Below the pieces are notes generated by a model that made no database searches, was not told the DNA's origin, and saw only the letters and a list, made by a program, of their open reading frames with translations. The position numbers were made by a program, and so were the translations under genes. A stretch of 64,000 nt of DNA from Pseudomonadota bacterium (GTDB lineage Bacteria > Pseudomonadota > Alphaproteobacteria > Sphingomonadales > Sphingomonadaceae): positions 2,382,367 to 2,446,366 of the forward strand of contig JBCBSU010000001.1 in NCBI GenBank assembly GCA_039818985.1, given 5' to 3'. Below are positions 9,478 through 21,142 of the stretch, in pieces (positions within the stretch are counted from its first letter, which is position 1; each line of letters starts with the position of its first letter).

Positions 9478-10866
9478 ATGAGCACCCGTACATCTGGCCC
9501 CTCCGACAGCCCGGTCATCGAAGATATCGCACAGCTTTGCGAGCCGATGCAGCGCGGCGAAAAACCCAAAGACAAATGGCGCATCGGCACTGAGCACGAA
9601 AAATTCGTGTTCTGCCGTCAGGACCGCCATGCGCCGAGCTATGATGAGCCCGGCGGCATTCGCGACCTGCTGATGGCACTCACCGAATTTGGCTGGGAGC
9701 CAGTGATTGAGCGCGGCGCCGATGGCATCGACAATGTCATCGCGATGCACGGACCCGATGGCACGGTCAGCCTGGAACCGGCGGGGCAGCTTGAACTGTC
9801 GGGCGCGCCGCTTGAGCATCTGCATGAGACCTGCAACGAGACCGGCCGCCATCTTGAGCAGGTCAAGGCGATCGGCGACAAGACCGGCAAGGGCTTTCTC
9901 GGTCTCGGCATGTGGCCGGACAAACGCCGCGAAGACCTTCCGGTTATGCCCAAGGGGCGCTACAAAATCATGATGCGCCACATGCCCAAGGTCGGCAATC
10001 TGGGTCTCGACATGATGCTGCGCACCTGCACCATCCAGGTCAATCTCGACTATTCATCCGAAGCCGATATGGCGCAGAAATTCCGTGTCGGGCTGGCGCT
10101 GCAGCCTCTGGCCACGGCGCTGTTCGCCAACTCGCCCTTCACCGAGGGGAAGCCCAATGGCTATCTCTCCTATCGCAGCCATATCTGGTCCGATACCGAC
10201 CCGGCCCGCACCGGGATGCTGCCTTTCGTCTTCGAAGAGGGTTTCGGCTACCAGCGCTATGTCGACTATATGCTCGACGTGCCGATGTATTTCGTCCACC
10301 GTGACGGACAATATATCGACGCGGCCGGACAGAGCTTCCGCGATTTTCTCAAAGGCAGGCTCCCCGCGCTCCCCGGCGAGCGCCCGACCATGGATGACTG
10401 GAACGACCATCTCTCCACCGCCTTTCCCGAGGTACGGCTGAAATCCTTCCTCGAGATGCGCGGTGCCGATGGCGGGCCGTGGAACCGCATCTGCGCCCTG
10501 CCTGCCTTATGGGTCGGCCTGCTCTACGATCAAAGCGCGCTCGATACCGCTTGGGATCTGGTCAGGGGCTGGTCGATGGAAGCGCGCCAGACACTGCGCG
10601 ACAGCGTTCCGAAAATGGGTTTCGATGCGCCGCTGGGCGATGGCCGCACCCTCCGCGACATAGCCGGACCGGTGCTCGATATTGCAGCCGCGGGACTTGC
10701 CAGCCGCAACCGGCTCAATAGCAGCGGCGACAATGAGACCGGCTTTCTCGAACCGCTGCGCGACATTGTGAACCGGGGACGGACACCGGCAGAACAGGTG
10801 CTGGCGCTCTATCACAGCGAATGGGCCGGTGATGTCGACCATATTTACGAGGCCATGAGCTTCTGA
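9478..10866 (+). CDS. gshA: Glutamate-cysteine ligase, plant/alphaproteobacterial type
   Basis: The 462-residue enzyme makes gamma-glutamylcysteine, the first step of glutathione synthesis, in the cytosol. It matches the GCS2-related class of alphaproteobacteria and plants: WRIGTEHEKF near the N-terminus (nucleotide/metal site), SLEPAGQLELSGAPL, MMLRTCTIQVNLDYSSE and LPALWVGLLYD. Length is normal. It is a lone gene between the P-domain protein and the TonB receptor. The YghU-type GST elsewhere in the window would use its end product. Confidence 0.93.
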   Translation: MSTRTSGPSDSPVIEDIAQLCEPMQRGEKPKDKWRIGTEHEKFVFCRQDRHAPSYDEPGGIRDLLMALTEFGWEPVIERGADGIDNVIAMHGPDGTVSLEPAGQLELSGAPLEHLHETCNETGRHLEQVKAIGDKTGKGFLGLGMWPDKRREDLPVMPKGRYKIMMRHMPKVGNLGLDMMLRTCTIQVNLDYSSEADMAQKFRVGLALQPLATALFANSPFTEGKPNGYLSYRSHIWSDTDPARTGMLPFVFEEGFGYQRYVDYMLDVPMYFVHRDGQYIDAAGQSFRDFLKGRLPALPGERPTMDDWNDHLSTAFPEVRLKSFLEMRGADGGPWNRICALPALWVGLLYDQSALDTAWDLVRGWSMEARQTLRDSVPKMGFDAPLGDGRTLRDIAGPVLDIAAAGLASRNRLNSSGDNETGFLEPLRDIVNRGRTPAEQVLALYHSEWAGDVDHIYEAMSF

Positions 10867-11091
10867 ATAACGGAACCGCCAGCAATGCGGCGCAACATGA
10901 TACTCAAAAAGTAACATAAATGACACAATAGCCGCATGAAATAGCAATAATCCCCATGATTCTGGGGCGCTCAGCTTGACCGCAGTGCAGCATTTTTTCA
11001 GGTCTCCCAGATAACGGGGGCATTAATGATCTCCGCATAATCCCGATTACATCGATTATCGTCACGCTGCCCTGACAGGAGATTGCAGATC

Positions 11092-13368
11092 ATGCGTTCC
11101 CATATCCAGAAAACCGCCTTCCGCGCCGTGCTCGCCTCTGCACTGGCGACCTCTTCACTTACCGCCATGCCGGCCATGGCCCAGCAGGGCGATGATGATG
11201 TTGCTACCGATGATCAGGGGCTGGACGTGCTTATCGTTTCGGCACAGCGCCGCGACGAGGACATTCAGGACGTGCCGCTGTCGGTATCGATCCTCAACGA
11301 TGAGGCGCTCGACGTATTGTCTTCGGGCGGTGCCGATATCCGCTCGCTGGCAGGCCGTGTCCCGGCGCTCAACATCGAGAGCTCCTTCGGCCGAACCTTC
11401 CCGCGTTTCTATATTCGCGGTCTCGGCAACACCGATTTCGACCTCAATGCATCGCAGCCGGTCAGCCTGGTCTATGACGATGTGGTCCTGGAAAATCCAA
11501 TCCTCAAAGGCTTTCCCGTGTTCGACCTGGAGCGCGTCGAGGTGCTGCGCGGCCCGCAAGGCACATTGTTCGGCCGCAACACCCCTGCCGGTATCGTCAA
11601 GTTCGACACCGTCAAGCCGGGTGAGACCGGCGGCTATGCCCGCGCCAGTGTCGGCAGCTTTGGTTCGGCGAATATCCAGGCCGCTGTGGGCGTTGCCGAT
11701 GACAGTGGCTTCTCGGTCCGCGCCTCGGGCTCCTATCAGCGGCGCAGCAACTGGATCGACAATGTCGATGCCCCGGGAGACGACAATCTTGGTGGTTTCG
11801 ATGACATCGCCGCGCGTATCCAGCTGCAATATGAGAGTGGCGGCTTTACCGGACGGCTGTTCGGCCAGACCCGCATTTTCGACGGCACTGCCATCGTCTT
11901 CCGCGCCAATGCGCTCGAACCCGGCACTGGCAACCTGATCGGCATTGGCGGACCTGGCACCGATTTCAGCCGCCGCGAGACCCGCGCCGATGGTATCAAC
12001 TTCCAGCGGCTCGAACTGTACAATGTCGGCGGCGCACTGGAATATGATTTCGGCGGTGTCACGCTTTACTCAATCACCTCCTACTGGAACGGCAATTTGT
12101 TCAGCCGCGGCGATATCGATGGTGGCTTCGGCAACCAGTTTGCGCCGGCGCAGGGTCCGGGCTTTATTCCGTTCAGTGCCCAGACCCAGGACAATGTGCC
12201 CAGTCTCGACCAGTTCACCCAGGAACTGCGCCTCGCCAGCAATGGTGACGGCCCGCTATCCTATCAGTTCGGCTTCTTCTATTTCAGCGAGAATCTCGAC
12301 ATTGAGACTTTCGACTTTGGCGGACCGCAAGATGTTATCCCTTCTGCCGTTGCGCTGCAGCGCCAGGAAAGCGAAGCCTTCGGCATTTTCGGCTCGGTCA
12401 GCTATGCCTTTGACAACGGCCTGACCCTGCAGGCCGGTGCGCGCTACAATGATGACTCGCGTGATTTTGTCGCTTCGCGCCCGGTCGACACTCGTCCCGG
12501 CTTTCTCGGCTTTGGCGGACCGGTTGCACCGATCACCAACAATGTCGATGCCAATCTGCTGACATGGGACCTCAGCGCGGTCTATGAAGTCAATCCGGAC
12601 GTCAACATCTTTGCCCGCGCCGCGCGCGGCTATCGTGCGCCGTCAATCCAGGGTCGCCTCGCTTTTGGACGCACCACCTCGGTGGCTGACTCCGAACGTA
12701 CCATGTCCTATGAGGCAGGTATCAAGTCGACCCTGTTTGGCGGCCTCGCCCGGTTCAACCTCACCGCCTATTATTCCAACACCGAAGACCTGCAGCTTAC
12801 CGCTGTTGGCGGCGGCACCAATTTCAATACGCTGCTCAATGCGGCCGATGTGGAAAGCTATGGTTTCGAGGCTGAGTTGCAGGCCCGTCCCGCCGATGGT
12901 CTCGACCTCAGCATCGGCATCGGCTTCAACGAGAATGAAATCCAGGATCCGCAGTTGCAGACTCAGGTTTGCGCCGCACCCTGCACCGTCCTCGATCCGA
13001 TCGTTGCCCCCGGCATCGCCTCGATCGACGGCAACCGCCTGCCCCAGTCGCCACGCTGGACGGTTAACTGGACCGCAGGCTATGCGCACCCCGTCGGCGG
13101 CGGTGAACTCTATGTCTTTACCGACTGGTACTATCGCAGCCGGATTCAGTTCTTCCTCTATAATTCGGTTGAATTTGCCGATGACAATCTGCTCGAGGGC
13201 GGCCTGCGCTTCGGTTATCGCACCCAGGATGGCAAGTTCGACCTAGCCGCCTTCGCGCGTAACATCACCAACGACACTTCGGCCGTTGGCGGTATCGACT
13301 TCAACAACCTGACCGCTTTCGTCAACGAACCGCGTATCTTCGGCGTGGAAATCGGAACCCGGTTCTAA
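11092..13368 (+). CDS. TonB-dependent outer-membrane receptor
   Basis: A 758-residue receptor. The ATG at 11092 is preceded by CAGGAG at 11076-11081; a TTG three codons earlier is less likely. A signal peptide ends near AMPAMAQQ. A TonB-box-like LDVLIVSAQRR leads into the plug domain (DVPLSVSILNDE, RGLGNTDFDLNASQPVSLV, LRGPQGTLFGRNTPAGIVKF). A 22-strand-type barrel follows, ending in a C-terminal Phe (EIGTRF) as needed for BAM insertion. Ligand is unknown; no siderophore or sugar-use genes adjoin it. A strong terminator follows. Confidence 0.92.
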   Translation: MRSHIQKTAFRAVLASALATSSLTAMPAMAQQGDDDVATDDQGLDVLIVSAQRRDEDIQDVPLSVSILNDEALDVLSSGGADIRSLAGRVPALNIESSFGRTFPRFYIRGLGNTDFDLNASQPVSLVYDDVVLENPILKGFPVFDLERVEVLRGPQGTLFGRNTPAGIVKFDTVKPGETGGYARASVGSFGSANIQAAVGVADDSGFSVRASGSYQRRSNWIDNVDAPGDDNLGGFDDIAARIQLQYESGGFTGRLFGQTRIFDGTAIVFRANALEPGTGNLIGIGGPGTDFSRRETRADGINFQRLELYNVGGALEYDFGGVTLYSITSYWNGNLFSRGDIDGGFGNQFAPAQGPGFIPFSAQTQDNVPSLDQFTQELRLASNGDGPLSYQFGFFYFSENLDIETFDFGGPQDVIPSAVALQRQESEAFGIFGSVSYAFDNGLTLQAGARYNDDSRDFVASRPVDTRPGFLGFGGPVAPITNNVDANLLTWDLSAVYEVNPDVNIFARAARGYRAPSIQGRLAFGRTTSVADSERTMSYEAGIKSTLFGGLARFNLTAYYSNTEDLQLTAVGGGTNFNTLLNAADVESYGFEAELQARPADGLDLSIGIGFNENEIQDPQLQTQVCAAPCTVLDPIVAPGIASIDGNRLPQSPRWTVNWTAGYAHPVGGGELYVFTDWYYRSRIQFFLYNSVEFADDNLLEGGLRFGYRTQDGKFDLAAFARNITNDTSAVGGIDFNNLTAFVNEPRIFGVEIGTRF

Positions 13369-16578: not shown

Positions 16579-17202
16579 TCAGGCAAAAACCATTTCGTAA
16601 TTATCCGCGGATTTCGGATCGCCACCATATCGGTTGTCCCCCTTCTGACCCGGCATGAACATAACCACCAGAAAGATGATCGCGACAATACCGCCGACAA
16701 AAGGCAACATGGTAAGTCCATAATAGAGCAGCAGATACCAGCCGCTAAAGCCGACATCGTGAAGCCGACGCACGGTTACCGCCAGATTGGGAATAAAGGT
16801 CGCAAGCCACCAGATCGCCAGCAGGAAAATACTGGTCGATCCGACAAGCAATTCGGTCAGCGCATCGTCGCCAAGGCCGCCATCGTCGAAGCTGCTGTCG
16901 TTGAACACATTCTGTGCAGGGCCGATAGGCGCATCCGGCGCGGGCGAGGAGCAAAAGGGTTCGCATTTGCGCTTTCCCACTGCGGCGCTTGCATCCGCCA
17001 GCTGGACATAGGATTGGCTTCGGCTCGAAAAGGAACCCATCTCGCCACTGGTTGCCACTATGGACATCAGCGACGCCAGGATCGGCGCGATCAGCGCGAA
17101 AGTGACAACCAGGTTGAGCAGCTGGAAACACCAATATTCCCGCCGCCGCGAACGGCCCGAAAATTCTGCATAACGCCGGAACGGCAGGATAAACCAATGC
17201 AT
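16579..17202 (-). CDS. DUF805 family membrane protein with extended central loop
   Basis: The 207-residue protein begins with the DUF805 hallmark WFILPFRRYAEFSGRSRRRE and ends with the second hallmark, VRRLHDVGFSGWYLLLYYG and FMPGQKGDNRYG. Three to four hydrophobic helices are present. A Ser/Ala/Cys-containing segment of roughly 70 residues (near CEPFCSSPAPDAP) is inserted after the first helices, making it longer than the usual 110-150. Function is unknown. A shorter DUF805 paralogue lies at 18782-19222, on the far side of the peptide/oxygenase pair. Confidence 0.85.
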   Translation of the reverse strand: MHWFILPFRRYAEFSGRSRRREYWCFQLLNLVVTFALIAPILASLMSIVATSGEMGSFSSRSQSYVQLADASAAVGKRKCEPFCSSPAPDAPIGPAQNVFNDSSFDDGGLGDDALTELLVGSTSIFLLAIWWLATFIPNLAVTVRRLHDVGFSGWYLLLYYGLTMLPFVGGIVAIIFLVVMFMPGQKGDNRYGGDPKSADNYEMVFA

Positions 17203-17271: not shown

Positions 17272-18468
17272 TTACTTGCGGGACGGCACAATATCGAACG
17301 AAATACAGATGCGCTCTTCTTCAAGGCCATGCGGCCATGTGCGGTGATGTAGCCAGGACGGGAACAGCAGCAGCATGCCTGGTGCCGGATGAATAATCTT
17401 CTCACCCAGCTTCTCGGATGCCCCTTCCCCCAGCAAGCGTTCCGACCAGCCAAAGCCGATAGCTCCCGCCTTGTCCGTGCCATGTACTATCGTTTCGGGC
17501 ACCGCGCTGTAATAGACACCGCTGATCCAGCCATCGGCATGCACATGCCATTTCTCATGGCCTTGTGCTCCGGTCAGCACCGCCCAGGGAGAAATGCGCG
17601 CGGTTTCAGGACGCCGCTCTTCGAAGAACTGGTGCGGCGGCAAATCCGCGAGTGCGCGCAGATGATCTTCCACCATATCGGCGATCCGGTCGAGCAGCCG
17701 CTTCACCATCGGGCCGTTGCGCATATAGAGTTCGTCGATCCGCCAGCTATTGCTGCTGGCACGCAGGGAATTTTCATAGCGTAGCGACGGATGGCGCTTC
17801 AGTTCATCATTGAGTCGGTCGTTGAACGCGGCCAGATCGGCAAATCCCTCTGGTGGTTCCAGCGATGTCTGGCGCAACAATGTTTCTTCACCGCGGATCG
17901 CCCGGGCTTCATCTTCGCGCCCAAGTGCCGCCAGAGCAGTAACATAGCTTGCCACCAACCGCGGTTGCCGTCCCCCTTTGGCGATCAGCTTCTCGGATTG
18001 GGCGAGCAGAGCGGCAAAGTTGCCGGTATCGGCCTGGATCACGGCATATTTGCGGATCGCGGTCGAATAGGTCGGATCAATTGCCAGCGCATCGAGCAGC
18101 CGCTCGCTGGCCGCATCATAATCGCCGCGTCGGCGCAGGATATCGCCAAGTTCGACCAGCACCCGCGATTGCAGCGCGTCGTCGAGGGGCCGGTCGAGCA
18201 GATGGCGCAACAGCGTTTCCGCTTCTGCTTGATGATCCAGGGTATCAGATCCGCGCAGGGCTCTTGCAGCCAGAAGCTGTGTCGCGGCTGTGGTATTGGC
18301 TTCGCCGATGTTCCGATAAAGTGCGACAGCCTCGTCAAACCGGTCGAGACGCAACAACAGATCGATTATCTGCCATTTCTGCTTTGTCGAAGGGGTGGCA
18401 ATCGCCTGCAAAAGCGTCAGACGCTGCTGCAGGTTGAGCGTAATCGGCGATGGCAGGTCAGGACGCAT
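17272..18468 (-). CDS. TPR-repeat protein with C-terminal 2OG-Fe(II) oxygenase domain
   Basis: The 398-residue protein has TPR-like helical pairs at about residues 30-195 and a C-terminal domain matching the putative 2OG-Fe(II) oxygenase family. Candidate metal-ligand histidines are in HEKWHVHADGWISGVYY (His308/His310) and LLFPSWLHHRTWPHG (His374/His375); Arg387 in EERICISFDI would hold 2-oxoglutarate. Such enzymes hydroxylate or otherwise oxidise protein or small-molecule substrates. It starts 39 bp after the stop of a 55-codon gene on the same strand, so the two probably form an operon and the TPR part may bind that peptide (inference). Confidence 0.82.
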   Translation of the reverse strand: MRPDLPSPITLNLQQRLTLLQAIATPSTKQKWQIIDLLLRLDRFDEAVALYRNIGEANTTAATQLLAARALRGSDTLDHQAEAETLLRHLLDRPLDDALQSRVLVELGDILRRRGDYDAASERLLDALAIDPTYSTAIRKYAVIQADTGNFAALLAQSEKLIAKGGRQPRLVASYVTALAALGREDEARAIRGEETLLRQTSLEPPEGFADLAAFNDRLNDELKRHPSLRYENSLRASSNSWRIDELYMRNGPMVKRLLDRIADMVEDHLRALADLPPHQFFEERRPETARISPWAVLTGAQGHEKWHVHADGWISGVYYSAVPETIVHGTDKAGAIGFGWSERLLGEGASEKLGEKIIHPAPGMLLLFPSWLHHRTWPHGLEEERICISFDIVPSRK

Positions 18469-18507
18469 TATCGGCCGACCTGTGGCAGAAAGAGTCTATG
18501 CCAATAA

Positions 18508-18675
18508 TCAGCTGTCGCCGGTCTCACCTCCCATGCCATCAATTCCTCCACCAAGAGCACCCTCAATCGCCAGCATGTCAACCTCCAGCTCGGTGAGTGC
18601 CGGCGGAGACCAGCTGCGCTTGAGGGTTACTGAATCGGTGGTTTCGGTCTGACGGCGCGTGTCACTGTTCTTCAT
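18508..18675 (-). CDS. Small 55-residue peptide, candidate RiPP-type precursor
   Basis: A complete ORF with ATG at 18675 and GGAG seven bases upstream. The N-terminal half is polar and charged (MKNSDTRRQTETTDS). Then comes SWSPPALTELEVDML and a tail rich in Gly, Asp and Glu (EGALGGGIDGMGGETGDS). The W-x-x-P-x-L element resembles the Y-x-x-P-x-L leader motif of lasso-peptide precursors. If the core starts at Gly39, Asp46 falls at core position 8, a usual macrolactam acceptor position. No cyclase or protease genes are nearby; the next gene is a TPR-2OG oxygenase. Real expression is likely from the ribosome site and spacing; the function is inference. Confidence 0.7.
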   Translation of the reverse strand: MKNSDTRRQTETTDSVTLKRSWSPPALTELEVDMLAIEGALGGGIDGMGGETGDS

Positions 18676-18781
18676 ATATTTGCTCCGGGGGCTGAGTAAG
18701 GGACTGTAGCGAAAACGCTAAGCATATCGTGACGATTCTGCGACCCCTAAATGGTCAACTGCCATGCCGCAGCGAGGCAGA

Positions 18782-19222
18782 TCAGGAAAATACCTCTTCC
18801 ACATCGCCACCGGCGCCTTTGGGATCGGGGCCGAAGCGATTGGGGCCACGCGTTCCCTCAAGGCACATGAACACCAGAATAATGATGCCGCCCACCAACG
18901 GAATAAATCCCAGCAGTACAAACCAGCCCGATTTATCCTGATCATGAAAACGCCGCACCTGTACGGCAAGGCTCGGAATCATGATCCCCAGGACAAATAG
19001 CCACAATAGCGGCCCCCCATCGTAATTCGCGCTGTAATTGGCGTTGTAGCCATCGCTTTCATATGTCGATGTTCCTATGCCGAGACCAAGAGCGTTCTCG
19101 ATTATGGCGACAATAATGGCAGCGATCATGATCAGCAGGAAGAACATCCAATATTCCTTGCGCCGCGACCGGCCCTGAAAATCGGCATAGCGTTTCAGGG
19201 GCATGATCATCCATTCCATCAT
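18782..19222 (-). CDS. DUF805 family membrane protein
   Basis: A 146-residue protein of normal DUF805 length. It opens with the positively charged cytoplasmic hallmark PLKRYADFQGRSRRKEYW, has four hydrophobic helices (MFFLLIMIAAIIVAII; LLWLFVLGIMIPSLAV; GWFVLLGFIPLVGGIIILVF) and carries VRRFHDQDKSGW and a PNRFGPDP tail. Function is unknown. It is 106 bp upstream of the 55-codon peptide gene on the same strand and is a paralogue of the DUF805 gene at 16579-17202. Confidence 0.88.
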   Translation of the reverse strand: MMEWMIMPLKRYADFQGRSRRKEYWMFFLLIMIAAIIVAIIENALGLGIGTSTYESDGYNANYSANYDGGPLLWLFVLGIMIPSLAVQVRRFHDQDKSGWFVLLGFIPLVGGIIILVFMCLEGTRGPNRFGPDPKGAGGDVEEVFS

Positions 19223-19297: not shown

Positions 19298-21142
19298 CTA
19301 TGCCGCATCCTTCTTCCGCGCCGCTTTCTTGCGCTCATGCGGGTCGAGATGGACCTTGCGCAGGCGGATCGATTTGGGGGTCACCTCGACCATCTCGTCA
19401 TCGTCAATATAGGCAATCGCCTGTTCAAGGCTCATCAGCCGCGGCGGGGTCAGCCGGATCGCATCGTCCTTGCCGGTAGAGCGGAAATTGGTGAGCTGCT
19501 TCGATTTCATCGGGTTGACCTCAAGGTCTTCCGGCTTGGCATTTTCGCCGATGATCATGCCCTCATAGATCGGCACACCCGAGCCGATAAACAGCTCGCC
19601 GCGCTCTTCCAGCGCGTTGAGCGCATAGCCGACGCTCTCCCCGGTGCCGTTGGAGATGAGAACCCCATTTGGCCGCCCGGCAACGCTTCCCTTGTACGGC
19701 CCGTATTTCTCGAACAGCCGGTTCATGATGCCGGTGCCGCGGGTATCGGAAAGGAACTCGCCATGATAGCCGATCAGCCCGCGTGACGGCGCGCTGAATG
19801 TGATGCGGGTCTTGCCACCGCCCGAGGGCCGCATATCGGTCAGCTCGGCTTTGCGCAGCTGCATCTTCTCGACCACGGTGCCCGAATGCTCATCATCAAC
19901 ATCGATGACGACGGTCTCATAGGGCTCGGTGCGGTTGCCCACCTCATCCTCGCGGAACAGGACACGCGGACGGCTGATGCCAAGCTCAAAACCTTCGCGG
20001 CGCATTGTCTCGATCAGCACCCCAAGCTGCAATTCGCCGCGTCCGGCAACCTCGAAGCTGTCCTTGTCGGCGCTCTCGGTGATGCGGATGGCAACATTGC
20101 TCTCCGCCTCGCGCATCAGCCGGTCACGGATCATCCGGCTGGTAACCTTGTCGCCCTCGCGCCCGGCAAAGGGGCTATCATTAACGGCAAAGCGCATCGA
20201 CAGCGTCGGCGGATCGATTGGCTGGGCTGCGATCGGCGTGTCGACTTCGGGCGCGGCGATGGTGTTGGCCACAGTGGCGACGGTCAGGCCCGCCAGCGAG
20301 ATGATATCGCCGGCCGAAGCCGTTTCCACCGGCACCCGTTCAAGCCCGCGAAACGCCATGATCTTGGTCGCGCGCCCGGCCTCTACCTGATTGCCCTCGC
20401 GATCAAGCGCGCGGATCGGGTCGTTGATATTGAGCGTACCGGTGGCGATGCGTCCGGTGAGGATGCGCCCGACGAAATTGTCGCGGTCGAGCAAGGTCAC
20501 CAAAAAGCTGAACGGCGCGTCCCTGTCGACATCGGGGGCGGGCACATGATCGATAATGGTATCGAACAGCGGTGACAGGTCGCCATCGCGCGCATCGGCA
20601 TCGAGATTGGCATAGCCCGAACGACCCGAGGCGAACAGTGCCGGAAAATCGAGCTGCTCGTCATTGGCCCCGAGATTGACGAACAGGTCGAAACATTCGT
20701 CGAGCACTTCCTGCGGCCGACCATCGGGGCGATCAATCTTGTTGACCACAACAATCGGCTTGAGGCCCAGCGCCAATGCCTTGCCGGTAACGAACTTCGT
20801 TTGCGGCATTGGTCCTTCGGCGGCATCGACGAGCAGGATAACGCCATCGACCATGGAGAGGATGCGCTCGACCTCGGCGCCGAAATCGGCGTGCCCCGGC
20901 GTGTCGACAATGTTGATGCGCACCGGCTTGCCCTCACTGTCGGGGCGCTCGACGCTGGTGCATTTGGCGAGGATGGTGATGCCACGCTCTTTCTCCAGAT
21001 CATTGGAGTCCATGGCGCGCTCTTCCACCCGCTGATTGTCGCGAAAGGTACCCGACTGGCGGAACAGCTGGTCGACCAGCGTGGTCTTGCCATGGTCGAC
21101 ATGGGCGATGATGGCGATATTGCGCAGCGAGGCGTTGGACAT
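19298..21142 (-). CDS. typA: Ribosome-associated translational GTPase TypA/BipA
   Basis: At 614 residues this is full-length BipA. The GTPase motifs are G1 [10 protein letters not shown]2 around RGITILAK, G3 DTPGHADFG and G4 [13 protein letters not shown]-like domains III and V and the BipA-specific C-terminal domain follow ([20 protein letters not shown], with a Lys-rich tail [11 protein letters not shown]). BipA binds the 70S ribosome and supports 50S assembly and growth under stress. It is a single gene in this region, 75 bp upstream of the preceding DUF805 start. Confidence 0.97.

Follow-up and report, generated by a model that had tools for sequence, protein, structure and literature searches.

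The window analysed here is a 64,000-nucleotide stretch of a sphingomonad genome ("own genome" below). On its minus strand it carries a short potential precursor gene followed by an oxygenase gene. The features recognized were:

18508..18675, minus strand: potential precursor gene P0001, 55 codons, stop included in the coordinates, translation as the earlier note gave
18683..18686, minus strand: ribosome site GGAG, 7 nucleotides 5' of the precursor ATG, read from the sequence
18595..18612, minus strand: W22-S-P-P25-A-L27, the W-x-x-P-x-L recognition motif (-17/-14/-12)
18565..18567, minus strand: Ile37, position -2, penultimate leader residue, in the Ile/Val column of the family
18511..18561, minus strand: predicted core G39 to S55 (GALGGGIDGMGGETGDS), with Gly1 and a C-terminal Ser, cleavage site inferred
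18538..18540, minus strand: Asp46, core Asp8, predicted isopeptide acceptor
17272..18468, minus strand: TPR-2OG-Fe(II) oxygenase gene P0002, 398 codons
17878..18432, minus strand: helical TPR part, residues ~13-197, from the predicted structure and Pfam TPR matches
17293..17586, minus strand: PF13759 oxygenase domain, residues 295-392, with conserved H308, H310, H375 and R386
18782..19222, minus strand: DUF805 gene between bipA and the pair, context
19298..21142, minus strand: bipA/typA, upstream of the pair, context and not pathway (TIGR01394, 905.7 bits)

The 55-codon gene with a good ribosome site, described in an earlier note on this DNA, was thus confirmed. The oxygenase gene starts 39 bases past the precursor stop, and its assignment as TPR plus 2OG-Fe(II) oxygenase was borne out by Pfam, with 71.1 bits for PF13759 (2OG-FeII_Oxy_5; cut-off 27) and further matches to TPR models. 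No RRE, cyclase or protease was found with Pfam and NCBIfam among the nine window proteins scanned, and none of the B2 and Asn_synthase matches of the whole genome fell inside the 64-kb window, in agreement with the claim that no cyclase or protease lies beside the 55-mer. The pair is therefore no canonical clustered lasso BGC, with A, B and C genes adjacent. A sigma-70 promoter-like site was not found directly upstream of the pair. Two DUF805 genes flank it (16579-17202 and 18782-19222); the one between bipA and the precursor is absent in two related loci, L128 and L133.

The 55-mer belongs to a recognizable family. A profile built from six peptides, all from other genomes and hence non-circular for the window, ranked it first of the 797 window ORFs (E 2.8e-7, next 1.4). 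With a 14-row profile lacking the 55-mer it was found at E 2.2e-6 (next window ORF 0.042), which ruled out a chance reading frame. P0001 had no match in Pfam or NCBIfam, with 0 families at E<=1 and thus no match to NF033524, the paeninodin family. One of 12 family peptides matched NF033524 at 5.7e-4; apart from such weak matches of single peptides, the curated libraries leave the family unnamed. As a single query, P0001 detected weak paralogues in the own and one congeneric genome (E 0.004 to 0.09). Of two congeners searched in this way, one had no match at E<=0.1 and the other only distant paralogues (best E 0.004). More W-x-x-P-x-L...Ser peptides were present at the paralogue places, among them five in tandem in the own genome, and the congener G002 had three precursor copies beside lasso-type genes. 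The 15-row family profile, which includes the window peptide, gave 12 precursor matches at seven places in the own genome, one copy being frameshifted, and matches in 31 of the 397 genomes of the taxonomic family. Trp and Pro were invariant in the 15 peptides. Judged by its sequence, the 55-mer is a member of a family of short putative precursors with W-x-x-P, usually Ile/Val/Thr(-2), Asp/Glu at core position 8 and a Ser end.

For the core layout, the 38 peptides with E<2e-6, from a set of 69 distinct ones, were tabulated. In 26 of the 38, an Asp or Glu stood 24 residues C-terminal of the Trp (shuffles: mean 3.4, maximum 11 in 20,000), and Ile or Val was the 16th residue (Trp = 1), nine residues before that column, in 27; these column statistics are partly circular, because the peptides were collected with a profile already containing the Asp. 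All 38 ended in Ser. When the spacing was allowed to slide, [IVT](-2) together with [DE]8 occurred in 14/15 oxygenase-linked peptides (shuffle mean 2.5) and in 32/43 others (shuffle mean 6.4). These 58 peptides leave out, from the 69, one truncated copy and 10 with E>2e-4; two further matches without the W-x-x-P-x-[LIVC] pattern were also left out. The peptides of L102, L103 and L105 read W-x-x-P-E-[LV]...LGT..D[VI]A without Asp/Glu at 8, and may represent another RiPP type.

If the leader is cut after E38, W22, P25, L27, I37, G39 and D46 of the window peptide take positions -17, -14, -12, -2, +1 and +8. The layout given in the accessible part of PMC10368454 has Tyr(-17), Pro(-14) and Leu(-12). 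There, cleavage behind an Ile(-2) leader was shown for BsfA of Bradymonas sediminis, Gly1 and Asp8 were assigned, and Sphingomonadales precursors with Ile/Val(-2) were reported in silico. Since the positions match, the core guessed in the earlier note fits the published layout. The window peptide has the features of an Ile/Val(-2) lasso precursor, i.e., an aromatic-x-x-P-x-L at -17 to -12 (W22/P25/L27), Thr/Ile/Val at -2 (Ile37), and Asp/Glu at core position 7-9 (Asp46 = 8), in a column enriched over shuffles. The lasso-like Gly1/Asp8 spacing proposed from the window alone proved to be a family pattern. The same note had remarked that the usual Thr(-2) is replaced by Ile; the residue is indeed Ile, and no departure from the rule, as Ile/Val at -2 is both published (PMC10368454, in part) and the family norm, so the "missing Thr" is no anomaly.

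Peptides of a second architecture, in clusters with a conserved ORF "X", kept Thr(-2) and Asp8, but their core starts two residues closer to the Trp. ORF "X" (~300 aa) is conserved in these Thr(-2) lasso clusters (L067:12657-13571, L047:2006-3217). For the L067 copy, neither Pfam nor NCBIfam gave a match at E<=0.01; a low-confidence model of it (pLDDT 69) was nearly all beta and, by eye, propeller-like.

Several parts of such a system are already known, namely Ile(-2) lasso precursors, paeninodin-type kinases, and a lasso 2OG hydroxylase. The Bsf system (BsfA/BsfB1/BsfB2/BsfK) shares with the window peptide the aromatic-x-x-P-x-L at -17 to -12, Ile(-2), Gly1 and Asp8, and with the genes described below the split B1/B2 and the HprK-like kinase. 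It differs in that its genes are clustered, with no oxygenase among those named, and in the C-terminal residue, which is Asp in BsfA and Ser in nearly all precursors here; BsfA carries its phosphate on Ser3 (PMC10368454, as far as accessible). Paeninodin-type clusters have in common with the present genes a kinase, sulfotransferase, nucleotidyltransferase, split B1/B2, cyclase, transporter and a C-terminal Ser (PMC9266682, PMC8498205, both in part); here, however, the genes are dispersed, an oxygenase is added, and the window peptide lacks an NF033524 match. A Sphingomonas lasso operon comprises precursor, B2, C, isopeptidase and TonB receptor genes, and the words searched in the accessible text gave no oxygenase (PMC11006600). 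For citrulassin a distant tailoring gene is known, the reverse of the present arrangement (PMC9266682, in part). The accessible part of a 2026 review (PMC13352647) contained neither "Sphingomon" nor "orphan". In the open-licence PMC literature, with one search restricted to 2024 onward, we found among the matches listed no description of PF13759/TPR oxygenases in lasso clusters, nor of a common hub that serves lasso precursors dispersed over the genome.

Relatives of the oxygenase formed a distinct group. In the profile search of the 397 family genomes, full-length members of ~400 residues scored 248-600 bits (10 genes in 8 genomes), and generic TPR-2OG proteins 182 bits or less. Four more genomes with the oxygenase (G494, G496, G590, G606) came from an order-level sample of 396 genomes, and in a class-level sample of 385 genomes no match from outside the family exceeded 219 bits. 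The Sphingomonas hylomeconis oxygenase was added from a contig search. In the 27-row tree, 18 rows made up a supported clade (SH-aLRT 100). The window oxygenase grouped with those of G329 (96) and G358 (92), and then with the G227 enzyme from a complete operon (87). The sister group had 12 rows, mostly from X-type clusters (support 95). The rows of G387 and G714 were basal outliers of the clade; G714 belongs to another family.

For 15 of the 18 clade rows, in 12 loci, a precursor at E<1e-3 was present in the same locus; the precursors of three of these loci had supplied rows of the profile itself. A cyclase gene was present in nine of the 12 and a PqqD match in seven; the three bipA-linked loci had neither. 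Of the other clade members, those of G387 and G714 had only weak W-x-x-P peptides upstream (E 0.02-0.6), and L179 (G204) had no detectable precursor. Among the 397 genomes, precursors were detected by profile in 6/8 with a clade oxygenase vs 25/389 without (p 3.5e-6). The expectation that homologues of the 55-mer always precede the oxygenase held in one direction only: most clade oxygenases have a precursor, but 43/58 precursor peptides had no clade oxygenase in the loci examined, many of which covered only ~1.5 kb on each side. A pairing of every TPR-PF13759 enzyme with such peptides was ruled out, as the nine generic TPR-2OG rows (generic enzymes being nearly all >450 aa) had no precursor in the loci examined, which in part extended ~1.5 kb to either side; the own genome's remaining three PF13759 genes also lacked one. 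In G714, from another alphaproteobacterial family, weak W-x-x-P-M-L peptides flank the oxygenase (L187:8788-9282 and 11221-11556), one of them 43 bases upstream.

Two kinds of loci stood out. L180 is a complete operon on one strand, with precursor, oxygenase (12 bases later), HprK, PqqD, B2 and AsnB. The order bipA-precursor-oxygenase was found in three genera, in the window, L128 and L133, with BipA recognized there by PF21018 (BipA_C). L128 had two precursors, the second weak (E 2e-3), and L133 three. The enzymes of the three bipA-linked genera were 41-47% identical. The position of the pair downstream of bipA in three genera could mean that the oxygenase acts on a housekeeping protein (BipA or a ribosomal factor), the peptide being incidental or a modulator; a Pseudomonas putida P4H in complex with EF-Tu (PDB 4iw3) was also among the fold matches of the enzyme. 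We consider such a target very improbable, as other clade members lie in lasso clusters where, by eye only, no bipA was seen.

In the oxygenase model (7-row alignment, pLDDT 90), a TPR solenoid precedes a beta-rich oxygenase domain at the C-terminus, the order of domains also found in human AspH. When P0002 was scanned with Pfam, PF13759 was the only oxygenase family to match, and AspH sits in another Pfam family. The best Foldseek match was the AspH TPR plus oxygenase structure (6yyy and others; E 1e-10, 14% identity). The rmsd of ~16 over both domains indicates that their orientation differs from AspH. By VIA Z, the oxygenase part was closest to 3bvc, 2rg4 and P4H/PHD (Z ~15), and AspH was not among the best 50 structures. 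H308, H310, H375 and R386 were invariant in the alignments, and the HxH is common to 2rg4 and 3bvc. As in AspH, which has two His as its only metal ligands, no acidic ligand is named beside the HxH...H set found here; the TPR domain of AspH joins in substrate binding (PMC6817910, in part).

In the oxygenase-linked cores the ring Asp was at position 8 in 14/15 and at 9 in one, and was the sole residue nearly fixed in position; 14/15 had a further Asp at varying positions. All 15 had Asp at the ring position, compared with 35 Asp, five Glu and three without either among the 43 others, a contrast too weak to name the target residue. We lean toward Asp8 as the first candidate for hydroxylation, because of its near-fixed position in the 15 cores, and toward the tail Asp16 as the next, by analogy with AspH and CanE. 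CanE, of the canucin A pathway, is an Fe/2OG hydroxylase that acts on the linear lasso precursor, aided by B1; unlike the dispersed pair of the window, it is encoded in a clustered Streptomyces BGC (PMC9266682, in part).

The earlier note had advised a search for asparagine-synthetase-like and transglutaminase-like genes elsewhere in the genome; AsnB-type cyclase genes and B2 were found. L065 had an AsnB-type cyclase, a PqqD protein, a sulfotransferase (PF00685) and an HprK-like kinase together, with one precursor ~2 kb off. A second AsnB, in L064, had two tandem precursors upstream (10431-11300), one of them the frameshifted copy. The other large contig carries, in L048, a B2 protein that exceeds the lasso_biosyn_B2 cut-off, together with a nucleotidyltransferase and an ABC transporter. 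The genome thus has an RRE, a B2 protease and a cyclase to offer, all at other loci than the window. Kinase, sulfotransferase, nucleotidyltransferase, B2 and transporter make up the paeninodin-type set (PMC8498205, PMC9266682, both in part). The cyclases and PqqD were over the Pfam cut-offs and under the NCBIfam lasso cut-offs, with 69.5 of 80 bits for the L065 PqqD (lasso_PqqD_Bac, E 2e-19) and 148-203 of 525 bits for the cyclases (L064, L065, L180, L219). The L065 kinase reached 35 bits against the TIGR04352 cut-off of 200.

B2 was present in 31/31 precursor-bearing genomes vs 14/49 others (Fisher p 1.8e-11), the latter being low-numbered genomes without a precursor match and no random draw; the association is partly expected, because many precursors sit in B2-containing clusters. 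A hub with PqqD, sulfotransferase, HprK, AsnB and B2 was found in G358, which also carries the orphan pair, and in G212. Precursors lie elsewhere in these genomes, with no family match below E 0.46 in ~20 kb around the hubs. In the own genome the PqqD/AsnB hub and B2 are on different contigs and the hub has its own precursor, which counts against a shared hub.

The low cyclase scores, far under the NCBIfam cut-off, would also fit a RiPP of the same family that is unthreaded, i.e., linear or a simple macrocycle, hydroxylated, perhaps phosphorylated, and possibly a signal. The related W-x-x-P peptides without Asp/Glu at 8 point the same way. This we regard as unlikely, given that Asp/Glu 8 and the conserved -2 residue are far above shuffles and that B2, PqqD and AsnB accompany the precursor family. 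A decayed system is a further explanation: an operon such as L180 would have broken up, leaving a bipA-linked remnant that makes no product. In the tree, the enzyme of the complete operon stands as sister to the three bipA-linked oxygenases, and the own genome does have a frameshifted precursor. Against a relic, which we find quite improbable, both window genes are intact, the ribosome site is present, the pair has kept its place in three genera with enzymes still similar in sequence, and G358 retains a full hub elsewhere.

What the sequences themselves show is a family with conserved positions, a pair that recurs, and machinery at other loci; from these we infer all the chemistry that follows. 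The RiPP-like, lasso-type reading of the earlier note gains support from the family, from the recurrence of the pair in other genera and from the oxygenase relatives in lasso clusters. Its suggestion of a peptide "fed by enzymes encoded elsewhere" agrees with the machinery at other loci, and a lone system is less likely than one served in trans. We consider it fairly probable that the 55-mer is an Ile/Val(-2) lasso precursor, that the neighbouring oxygenase hydroxylates it, and that a shared, paeninodin-like set of enzymes closes the ring in trans. The W-x-x-P-x-L motif at -17 to -12 would be bound by a PqqD-type recognition protein from another locus, and the adjacent oxygenase would hydroxylate the linear core, as CanE does. 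The B2 protease would then cut after ...AIE, an AsnB-type cyclase would join Gly1 to Asp8, and the C-terminal Ser55 is a possible target of an HprK-like kinase. The enzymes that act after the oxygenase, encoded at other loci, would be common to about a dozen dispersed precursors. As a wider and more tentative proposal, possible rather than probable, some sphingomonads may have a hub-and-spoke arrangement. One RRE/protease/cyclase/kinase set would serve up to about a dozen precursors at housekeeping loci. A spoke could bring a tailoring enzyme of its own, in this case an AspH-like TPR oxygenase that would beta-hydroxylate the ring Asp8, whether the ring is already closed or not.

Genome mining for lasso peptides usually looks for compact clusters. 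With precursors far from cyclase and protease, at seven places in one genome, cluster-based mining would miss most of them. If the lasso reading is true, the TPR-PF13759 oxygenases would be a lasso-tailoring family beyond CanE, with an architecture like that of human AspH. As all parts were identified in one genome, the system is open to co-expression.

Several orphan precursors sit among housekeeping genes. One orphan lasso-type precursor in G002 adjoins the genes for ribosomal proteins S12 and S7 (L120:9571-10028). Another lies beside P450 and aldehyde dehydrogenase genes (L117:9456-9710), with the same order, by eye, in a congener (L119:9512-9661). Two or three ~210 aa proteins accompany lasso precursors in L065:6380-8407, L009:7760-9828, L121:6725-9434 and L130:9621-11614. 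So does a ~206 aa protein that neither Pfam nor NCBIfam recognizes, and the ~210 aa protein at L065 has a Phage Tail Collar domain (PF07484).
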